From Synoicihabitans lomoniglobus (GTDB lineage Bacteria > Verrucomicrobiota > Verrucomicrobiia > Opitutales > Opitutaceae): DNA of 64,000 nucleotides. Numbering within the stretch: position 1 is the first letter of the stretch; every line of letters starts with the position of its first letter. The notes beneath the pieces are model-generated. The model was not told the origin of the DNA. It worked only from the letters and a program-made list of their open reading frames with translations, and made no database searches. The translations under genes were made by a program, and so were the position numbers. This document shows, in pieces, positions 59,011-61,170 of the stretch. The DNA lies in the NCBI RefSeq assembly GCF_029023725.1, contig NZ_CP119075.1, positions 3,405,501-3,469,500 on the forward strand, in the 5' to 3' direction.

Positions 59011-59793
59011 ATGCAGGTGTTACCTCCCCAAGAAGACCCGGAAGATCTGGGCCCGTTTCAATTCGGTGTATTGGTGCTTTCGCTCGTGTTGCTGGCCGGA
59101 TTGGGCGCGGAGTTGGCCTTCCAGGTTCCGGAGGAAATCCAACGCCTCGTCTTCTACATTGATACGACAATCTGTGGTCTGCTCTTCATCGATTTCGCCA
59201 TCCGCTTCGCCAAGGCCGATTCCAAGTGGCGGTTCATGAAGTGGGGCTGGTTTGATCTGTTGGCGGCGGTGCCGGCGATCGAGGCCTTTCGCATTCTGCG
59301 CGTGGTGCGCGTCGTGCGCCTGCTCATCGCCATCCGGTCCGTGCGCCGCCTCTACAAGATCCTGTGGGAGAGCAAAACCAGCGCCGGCCTGACCGGCATC
59401 CTCGTGTTCACCTTCCTCGTGATTTCGTTTGGCTCCACCGGCATCCTCATCGCCGAGCTCGACGAACCCGAAGCCAACATCCAGACCGCCAACGACGCGC
59501 TGTGGTGGAGCATCACCACCACCACGACCGTGGGTTACGGCGACAAATATCCCGTCACCACCTCCGGCCGTATCATCGCAACCTTCGTGATGATCGCGGG
59601 CATCGGACTCTTCGGCACCCTCAGCGGTGTCGCCGCCAGTATTTTTCTCGGCGACGACAAGGATGAACCCGCCTCACGCGAAGCCCAACGGTTGATGTTG
59701 GAACAGCTGAAAGCCATGCAGGGGGAGATTCGTGAACTACGGGAGCAGCAGCCGGCACCAGCTTCGACGCACAAGCCGCCCGCCCAAACCTGA
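59011..59793 (+). CDS. Voltage-gated potassium channel-like protein
   Basis: A 260-residue six-helix channel. S4 has regularly spaced Arg (RILRVVRVVRLLIAIRSVRR), the pore carries the selectivity filter in TTTTTVGYGDKYPV, and the last helix is GIGLFGTLSGVAASIFL. A cytoplasmic coiled coil (LMLEQLKAMQGEIRELREQQ) ends it. It conducts K+ and probably senses voltage. The ATG at 59011 is preferred over a TTG 6 bp upstream. Confidence 0.9.
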   Translation: MQVLPPQEDPEDLGPFQFGVLVLSLVLLAGLGAELAFQVPEEIQRLVFYIDTTICGLLFIDFAIRFAKADSKWRFMKWGWFDLLAAVPAIEAFRILRVVRVVRLLIAIRSVRRLYKILWESKTSAGLTGILVFTFLVISFGSTGILIAELDEPEANIQTANDALWWSITTTTTVGYGDKYPVTTSGRIIATFVMIAGIGLFGTLSGVAASIFLGDDKDEPASREAQRLMLEQLKAMQGEIRELREQQPAPASTHKPPAQT

Positions 59794-59849
59794 TCGATTT
59801 CGTGTGCCAGCCAGCCGCGCGTGTTCCATCCACCACGCCGACGCGTTCC

Positions 59850-60025
59850 GGTCTTCGCGAGCGAAGCCCTACGCCAGCAGCACGCTCCATCCTGACGTAG
59901 GGGCGTCGCTCGCGACGACCGCACGCGTCCCCCCCACCACGCCGACGCGTTCCGGGCTTCGCGAGCGAAGCCCCTACCCCAGCAGGACGCTCCATCCTGA
60001 CGTAGGGGCGTCGCTTGCGACGACC
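59850..60025. repeat. REP cluster upstream of the RAYT gene (two head-to-head pairs)
   Basis: Pairs: minus 59850-59872 with plus 59897-59920, and minus 59954-59977 with plus 60002-60025. Both pairs have a 24-bp spacer. The whole unit (pair plus flanks) is itself tandemly repeated with a period of 104 bp. Plus members read GTAGGGGCGTCGCTCGCGAC or with TT in the loop. Confidence 0.9.
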
Positions 60026-60066
60026 GCGAACTTGCCCAGACGATTCGCCTCATCACAATCCTGACC

Positions 60067-60618
60067 ATGCCGACCGGTCCTCAGCGGCAAACTGCCCGCC
60101 TTTTGCTCGGCCGTGTTTCGGCTCCGGGCGCGGTGTATTTTGTGACCATGTGCACCAGCAAGCGCGCTCAGGTGCTCACCCTCGCCCATAACCTCTCCTC
60201 CGTGCGTTCCACATTGGCCGATACGTTCAGCCACGACAACTCATTGCACGCCGCCTGTGTGATGCCCGACCACGTTCATCTCCTGTTCACTTTGGGCAAG
60301 CGCCTCACTGTCGGCCAGGTGATGGGCAAATTTAAGGCATCCGTCCGCCGCCGCTCCGACAAACTGTGGACGTGGCAACGCAACGGTTTCGAACACCGAC
60401 TGAGAGAAACCGAAAGCGAAGCGGACTACGCGTTCTACATTTTCATGAATCCTTACCGAGCGCACCTCGTTCCTATTACTACTGCGTGGTCTGGATGGTT
60501 ATGCGAGGACCCCCTGCGCTATCGATTCCTCGCCGGTTTGAAACCAGACGGCACGCCCCCGCCGGAATGGCTCAACTACGATAAATCAATCGCCGCCAAA
60601 ATCGACCGCTCTTCGTAG
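60067..60618 (+). CDS. REP-associated tyrosine transposase (RAYT)
   Basis: A 183-residue HUH single-strand transposase of the Y1_Tnp/RAYT family. The HUH motif is H69-V70-H71 in CVMPDHVHLLF, and the conserved Tyr124 lies in FYIFMNPYRAHL. Such enzymes cut single-stranded DNA at REP hairpins with a GTAG or related tetranucleotide foot and can move or maintain REP elements without mobilising themselves. Here REP clusters lie on both sides, and its stop codon is part of a REP foot. The protein looks intact. Confidence 0.9.
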   Translation: MPTGPQRQTARLLLGRVSAPGAVYFVTMCTSKRAQVLTLAHNLSSVRSTLADTFSHDNSLHAACVMPDHVHLLFTLGKRLTVGQVMGKFKASVRRRSDKLWTWQRNGFEHRLRETESEADYAFYIFMNPYRAHLVPITTAWSGWLCEDPLRYRFLAGLKPDGTPPPEWLNYDKSIAAKIDRSS

Positions 60619-60920
60619 GGGCGTCGCTCGCGACGACCGCTCGCGTTCCCCCCACCACGCCGACGCGTTCCGGTCTTCGCGAGCGAAGCCCCTACCCCAG
60701 CAAGACGCTCCATCCTCCCGTAGGGGCGTCGCTTGCGACGACCGCGCTTCATCCTGCTTAGCCACGCCCACCGCAGCGGCGCTTTCGGCGAAAGCGCCCT
60801 ACCTTCAACCGCGCTCCAGCCCATCACGACACCACGCCGCCGCGTTCCGGGCTTCGCGAGCGAAGCCCCTACCCCAGCAGGACGCTCCATCATGACGTAG
60901 GGGCGTCGCTCGCGACGACC
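60615..60920. repeat. REP cluster downstream of and overlapping the RAYT stop codon
   Basis: Members: plus 60615-60638 (its GTAG contains the RAYT stop TAG, 60616-60618), minus 60672-60695, plus 60720-60743, minus 60778-60802 (GGCGCTTTCGGCGAAAGCGC then CCTAC), minus 60849-60872, plus 60897-60920. The pairs 60672/60720 and 60849/60897 each have a 24-bp spacer. Confidence 0.9.
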
Positions 60921-61170
60921 GCGCTTCATCCACCAGCACCCCCGCGTTCACTCCACACACCCTGAGTAAAACCGTTGGGCGTCCCCACCCCACGATGATC
61001 TCGGTTTCAGATTCTCAAAATTTTCTGTAACCCGACGCCGGCTCCGCGGGTATCTCTCCTTGACATTCTACAGGAAGAAGGTCGTTCATGTAGACAATCT
61101 AGGAAAGTCCCATTGGACCCGATTTCCGACCTGCCCCTTATTTCCCACTTCAAACTTCTTACTTACCAGA
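60921..61170. other. Region upstream of the PadR gene
   Basis: No further REPs. Beyond the promoter and operator annotated at 61060-61094, nothing is recognised. Confidence 0.5.
61060..61094 (+). promoter_or_regulatory. Candidate PadR promoter with TCTACA/TGTAGA inverted repeat
   Basis: A TTGACA hexamer (61060-61065) overlaps an inverted repeat TCTACA (61067-61072) and TGTAGA (61089-61094) with a 16-bp spacer. TAGACAAT at 61091-61098 is a possible extended -10. PadR proteins bind such dyads near their own promoters, so this may be the autoregulatory site. Confidence 0.5.

Follow-up and report, generated by a model that had tools for sequence, protein, structure and literature searches.

The window analysed here is a stretch of 64,000 nucleotides from the Opitutaceae bacterium Synoicihabitans lomoniglobus, which carries near its end an intact RAYT (TnpA-REP) ORF set between arrays of GTAG-footed hairpins (REPs). 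The REP clusters cover 59849-60026 and 60615-60921, within 1 nt of the bounds given in the initial annotation, and the gene that it had placed between them is present at 60067-60618. The features are as follows:

59849-59872, minus strand: reversed type-A REP with one C fewer beside its foot (by eye, repeat comparison)
59896-60028, plus strand: upstream copy of the BIME module (family D1), 95% identical to 60614-60746
59897-59921, plus strand: forward type-A REP, opens the upstream forward-reversed-forward (f-r-f) module 59897-60026 (pattern match, repeat comparison)
59953-59977, minus strand: reversed type-A REP (pattern match)
60002-60026, plus strand: forward type-A REP, the closest upstream of the RAYT start at 40 nt (pattern match)
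60067-60618, plus strand: RAYT gene, ATG to TAG, 183 aa, stop TAG at 60616-60618
60614-60746, plus strand: downstream copy of the BIME module (family D1), starting at the RAYT stop (repeat comparison)
60615-60639, plus strand: forward type-A REP whose GTAG foot contains the RAYT stop (GTAGGGGCGTCGCTCGCGACGACCG, 0 mismatches; fold)
60671-60695, minus strand: reversed type-A REP, T/A stem variant (pattern match; fold)
60720-60744, plus strand: forward type-A REP, closes the downstream f-r-f BIME module 60615-60744 (pattern match, repeat comparison)
60778-60802, minus strand: reversed REP-like hairpin of a second type, GTAGGGCGCTTTCGCCGAAAGCGCC, an apparent hybrid BIME component inside the type-A array (by eye, unscored)
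60848-60872, minus strand: reversed type-A REP (pattern match)
60897-60921, plus strand: forward type-A REP (pattern match)

The folds show that type-A REPs are built from GTAG, GG, an imperfect stem and a CTYG loop. Between forward and reversed copies both arms of the stem change in concert (GTCGC/GCGAC versus TTCGC/GCGAA), and GTAG is found directly 5' of a hairpin with compensatory stem variation. Allowing up to 3 mismatches, the REP pattern is matched 11 times in the window and never in 100 shuffles, and the REP at 59849-59872 is outside this list because it is one base shorter. Shuffle z-scores for six REP folds are only -0.4 to -1.6, as GC-rich 28-mers fold regardless. Since GTAGGGGCGTCGCTCGCGACGACCG is matched without mismatch at 60615-60639, the RAYT stop is the TAG of the GTAG foot. 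The nearest REPs on either flank of the gene are both forward (60002 and 60615) and the inverted ones lie next out (59953 and 60671). An f-r-f module stands on both sides, the two being 95% identical and the downstream copy beginning exactly at the stop. An inverted REP flanked by two direct ones is described as the basic BIME module (Nunvar 2010, PMC2817692).

The RAYT protein passes the NCBIfam model NF047646 (REP_Tyr_transpos) narrowly, with 80.5 bits at a cut-off of 80; this model is matched at E<=0.001 by all 26 of the 26 aligned Opitutaceae members. The Pfam Y1_Tnp match scores 34 bits. Identity as an IS200 transposase was rejected, with NF033573 at 26.3 bits under a cut-off of 55. The HUH motif is H69-V-H71 and Y124 is the candidate nucleophile, together with N128. 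In the alignment of the 26 Opitutaceae sequences H69 and N128 are invariant and H71 and Y124 are conserved at 90% or more. The best PDB match by sequence profile is the E. coli RAYT 4er8 (E 1.2e-13), in which the profile alignment pairs Y124 and N128 with a Tyr and an Asn that are likewise four residues apart; the names Y115 and N119 are those used in the RAYT literature (PMC8266576, PMC6006769). An AlphaFold (AF2) model with a mean pLDDT of 89.9 also has 4er8 as its top Foldseek match (E 5.1e-9, TM 0.62/0.68). Its final helix extends to residue 182, and the TAG of the REP would thus terminate the protein at the end of its last helix. Family model, motif, fold and 36 genomic REP copies support the view of the initial annotation that the gene encodes a putative HUH-type RAYT with cognate GTAG REPs, the NCBIfam pass being marginal.

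The genome is a single contig of 5,926,369 bases, in which copies were counted by pattern searches. Type-A REPs number 36 at up to 3 mismatches versus none for a backwards-read control pattern, which bears out the genome-wide enrichment that the initial annotation expected; more than 100 REPs per genome are given as usual elsewhere (Nunvar 2010, PMC2817692). Of these 36 copies, 25 are no more than 39 kb from the RAYT. Such crowding is what a source unit would be expected to show, while the autonomy proposed in the initial annotation is putative, as is mobility. Some 35 kb downstream of the RAYT, 14 of these type-A REPs form one array (L041, 3501112-3503466), mostly as r-f pairs with a spacing of about 290 bp. 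The array surrounds a pair of small ORFs on the minus strand, with no RAYT seen inside it, and this ORF pair resembles a DUF5615/DUF433 toxin-antitoxin pair.

Further RAYT copies, a search for which was proposed in the initial annotation, are present as five RAYT-like loci of 31-34% identity, located next to other hairpin types, and as four weaker matches (L007-L010, 24-32% identity). Three of the hairpin types beside the five loci were counted at 75 copies, 85 copies (at up to 2 mismatches) and 64 copies, in lists that may overlap. The pattern fits one REP type per RAYT, as is reported for other hosts (PMC6006769). Among these loci, two tandem RAYT copies sit together in an array of REPs of the 85-copy type GTAGGCCGCGAGC (L003/L005, 5878078-5879258). 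A degraded RAYT with two internal stops sits beside the 75-copy type GTAGGAGCG (L002, 3751890-3752420), and in the one frame that was followed its end is also the TAG of a REP foot. Two closely similar Y1 transposase genes are found about 2 kb apart among short repeats with GGGGTCAGACTTTGCACATTGCACTCGC (L009/L010, 2621471-2627046).

The search for RAYT genes covered 200 Opitutaceae genomes, sampled evenly from a larger set, and 84 of these gave matches at E<=1e-10. Of the 150 matches listed, 135 loci were analysed, two of them without a stop in the stretch, which leaves 133; L003 and L005 overlap as the same gene copy, so that one row is double, and there are 131 clusters at 90% identity. The stop in the foot of the first downstream REP, exact at the window locus as initially described, recurs by strict count in 25 of these 133 RAYTs. 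The commonest state among them is a reversed REP just after the stop (62/133). A forward REP just after the stop and outside the foot is found in 13 of the 133, a reversed hairpin within the ORF end in 9 and a forward hairpin within the ORF end (class Fi) in 6. By automatic detection 17 of the 133 listed have no REP at the 3' end and one lies at a contig edge. RAYTs without end REPs, to which the initial annotation had given weight, are represented by these 17, at least three of which (L191, L193 and L208) look like detector misses.

Dinucleotide shuffling of the downstream sequence gave means of 6.3 for the stop in a foot, 3.4 for a forward REP after the stop and 8.45 for a reversed one. Taken together, 100 of the 133 listed RAYTs have a REP of either orientation over the stop or right behind it, versus a shuffled mean of about 18. 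Among control genes, with the query excluded, any adjacent REP was found in 3 of 29 gluQ-like and 4 of 20 lnt-like genes, and among the window ORFs of at least 150 codons other than the RAYT in 6 of 42, several of these being weak hairpins by eye. Measured against shuffles and control genes, the presence of REPs at the stop is therefore a genuine property of these RAYT genes. RAYT-like genes from other taxa comprise 74 loci, of which several look distant from the Opitutaceae subgroup; among the 71 that have a stop, it lies within a REP in 6, before a forward REP in 7, before a reversed REP in 11 and without a REP in 47.

The frequency of REPs at the stop in either orientation might suggest that the hairpin acts on the RAYT mRNA, by 3' protection, by coupling of ribosome and hairpin or by binding of the RAYT to its own transcript, and REPs are described as raising mRNA stability (PMC6006769). 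However, orientation and exact spacing differ among RAYTs, Rfam returns nothing at gathering scores in 59700-61100, and the scan for promoters and terminators finds 1 and 2 sites, where shuffles average 0.5 and 1.0, with none terminator-like at the REPs. A regulatory role is accordingly regarded as quite unlikely.

The position of the overlap is regular. In 25 of the 133 listed RAYTs a forward hairpin with a GTAG foot starts at -1, and across the final 60 nt of the ORFs no other start position occurs. With the broader foot GT[AG]G, 19 of the 133 listed rows have ORF-end hairpin matches in other phases; as some of these matches sit on a conserved Trp codon (GTGG), the phase statement is made for the GTAG foot only. 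Six of the 19 rows are those of class Fi. For the tree and for the comparison of protein tails L191, L193, L208 and L050 were added by eye, which brings the stop-in-REP state to 29 rows. In this set 11 of 29 proteins end 1-2 residues past the last W[LIV] and 12 of 29 end 11-17 residues past it, and the corresponding figures for rows with a reversed REP are 18 and 24 of 62. RAYT proteins thus terminate within a few residues of one place whichever REP adjoins. The end is not exactly constant, since the short-tailed RAYTs are more often one residue longer when the stop lies in a REP (5 of 11) than when a reversed REP follows (1 of 18).

Genes of the same genome other than RAYTs end in REP feet as well. 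In the surveyed stretches there are about 150 distinct copies of four REP types out of 260 matches listed, and among 35 forward feet near called gene ends, seven are located exactly at -1 and none at -2 to -29. One of the seven is the window RAYT; the other six belong to gluQ-like, mutT-like, lnt-like, periplasmic binding-protein-like and two paralogous PEP-CTERM-like genes, names that were read from the sequences. A separate test of coding ORFs that run into a foot found 8 of 11 in phase and 3 of 11 out of phase, so an in-phase filter would not be absolute; in both tests genes were called by a crude codon score. In the nearest gluQ-like relative (70% by tblastn) a native TAA stands two codons earlier, and at the gluQ-like gene the REP therefore seems to have supplied its own TAG. 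Other gluQ-like relatives stop at other places, with G-TAG in 4 of 29. Behind the periplasmic binding-protein-like gene its 3' end is repeated within the REP array (L329, 1808804-1811828), as is described for rayt genes (Nunvar 2010, PMC2817692).

The same data bear on the possibility that REPs choose their target, inserting beside a pre-existing G-TAG stop which then turns into the foot. The position -1 is a sharp mode in RAYTs and ordinary genes alike, a peak that might also be explained by a targeting preference. Suitable targets do exist, since some gluQ-like relatives have native G-TAG ends with no scored forward REP (L350, L358, L362 and L369 of the 29, L362 being maybe a missed REP). 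However, among the few informative relatives the nearest gluQ-like one, with its TAA two codons upstream, speaks against this explanation, and TnpA-REP is reported to cleave at CT or CA, GTAG being treated as a guide-like foot that belongs to the REP (PMC8266576). Insertion next to existing stops is hence considered very improbable.

In the initial annotation the overlap was taken as a sign that gene end and element are maintained together. As foot and stop are the same bases, selection on the protein would guard the element and the unit would stay together. In its favour, the RAYT stops among the matches listed that come after G and directly before a hairpin are 25 TAG and 6 TGA, and in five of the six TGA cases the REP is reversed, with CTAC behind the hairpin. 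This excess of TAG can be explained without reference to the stop, because GTAG feet are reported to be conserved in more than 90% of members for most REP families (Di Nocera 2013, PMC3733652). Distant RAYT lineages whose REPs differ in sequence show the stop-in-REP state repeatedly, and it requires about 20 changes on the RAYT tree, at least 9 of which are forced by well-supported branches; the tree is a quick one in which 53 of 128 inner branches have support under 80. With shuffled tree labels the mean is 25.5 changes, and a value as low as 20 is reached in 3 of 500. The state is somewhat clustered on the tree, which together with its recurrence alongside differing REPs counts in favour of a lock between gene and element, yet it comes and goes. 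This turnover speaks against co-maintenance, as does the commonest arrangement, which has no overlap (62 reversed and 13 forward REPs after the stop among the 133 listed). The inference is further weakened by the ordinary genes with the same trait, six in number and including two paralogues. The notion of a special lock is judged unlikely.

The REPs on both sides of the gene may be considered together. At 77 loci scored on both sides, the nearest REPs form 58 inverted and 19 direct pairs. A reversed downstream REP is paired with a forward upstream REP in 37 cases versus 4, and a stop-in-REP with a reversed upstream REP in 17 versus 7. The association has a Fisher p of 6e-7 over 65 loci, a test that ignores kinship and includes three rows scored by eye; on the tree just 6 independent pairs remain on starred branches (14 on all branches), 3.3 of which go the same way versus 0.3, with a median sign-test p of 0.25. 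It is tentatively suggested, as a rather doubtful proposition, that Opitutaceae RAYTs have two opposite REP-pair polarities, with the feet pointing outward (37/77) or inward with the downstream foot on the stop (17/77). The window RAYT, whose upstream REP is forward, belongs to the 7 deviating stop-in-REP rows and falls outside both. Should selection act on these polarities, a single functional site would serve as recognition foot and as translation stop, and RAYT evolution would repeatedly involve a switch between a gene inside a REPIN and a gene between REPINs.

Comparison with congeners gives a partial view of the history of the locus. The ion channel gene is found in seven of them. In one (G159, L405) the exchanger-like gene, the ion channel, padR and the ABC gene are in the same order as in the window and no RAYT is present, with a single hairpin-like match between ion channel and padR. 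In another (G020, L399) ion channel and exchanger-like gene are both present, with no padR match in the stretch covered. The short stretches available from the remaining five yield no padR and no exchanger-like gene, which is partly due to their shortness. From gene order, this fits either insertion of the RAYT in the window lineage or its loss in G159.

The explanation that is favoured, and is held to be probable, is that the locus is a REPtron, an intact RAYT within a BIME array of its cognate REPs, in which the overlap results from compact packing and an in-phase filter. By analogy, the RAYT would be expected to bind single-stranded REP hairpins by their GTAG foot, to cut next to REPs and to spread REP and BIME modules, activities that are established for E. 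coli and other RAYTs. The most likely history would be that REP modules grew up to the coding end or were deleted down to it; neither an ancestor lacking the downstream module nor an insertion event was observed. Where a forward REP runs into the reading frame, it would be retained only if its own TAG is in phase, so that the protein stops close to its normal terminus. The stop overlap would then be a by-product of packing and filter, with no dedicated lock between gene and element.

The locus is highly reminiscent of the RAYT/TnpA-REP REPtrons (Nunvar 2010; E. coli RAYT 4er8), with which it shares the HUH plus Tyr fold, GTAG hairpins on both sides, BIME modules, REPs crowded near the gene and a REP adjoining the stop. 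Unlike in these systems, the nearest REPs are direct (f-gene-f) and not inverted, and the stop lies within the foot. The host also differs, being a member of the Opitutaceae, whereas the RAYTs that satisfied the criteria of the 2010 article were restricted to gammaproteobacteria (Nunvar 2010, PMC2817692). The same article describes REPs as often very near or immediately downstream of the rayt stop. GTAG REP ends are known often to supply a TAG stop (termed opal in the paper) to flanking ORFs, which is exactly the geometry of the window, and the legend of Fig. 8 marks REPs and other inverted repeats that overlap the 3' ends of tyrosine transposases; O. terrae is there called highly enriched in GTAG repeats (Di Nocera 2013, PMC3733652). 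No phase count, family-wide count for RAYTs or orientation classes were found in the main text of that paper. IS200/IS605 elements (IS608, ISDra2) share the Y1 HUH fold (matches to 2xma and 2vjv) and a tetranucleotide 5' of the terminal hairpin. Unlike them, the window RAYT is under the NCBIfam IS200 cut-off and there is no sign of transposition as a unit. Phase counts and the two polarities were not found in open-licence papers on RAYTs and REPs (PMC2817692, PMC3733652, PMC8266576, PMC6006769, PMC3686654 and Bertels 2011, PMC3116915). The RAYT-REP system and the sharing of the stop are already known, and what the analysis adds is a count across the family together with the in-phase rule.

Taken by itself, the locus is a typical one of its kind, and its value is as an entry to a rule that can be counted. 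The shared stop is weak evidence of co-selection, and the data argue that REPs hug gene ends under an in-phase filter, special co-maintenance being disfavoured. The rule is that a REP lies at the stop in 100 of 133 sampled RAYTs and that GTAG-footed forward REPs which overlap the gene do so in phase, and it constrains models of how REP modules spread.
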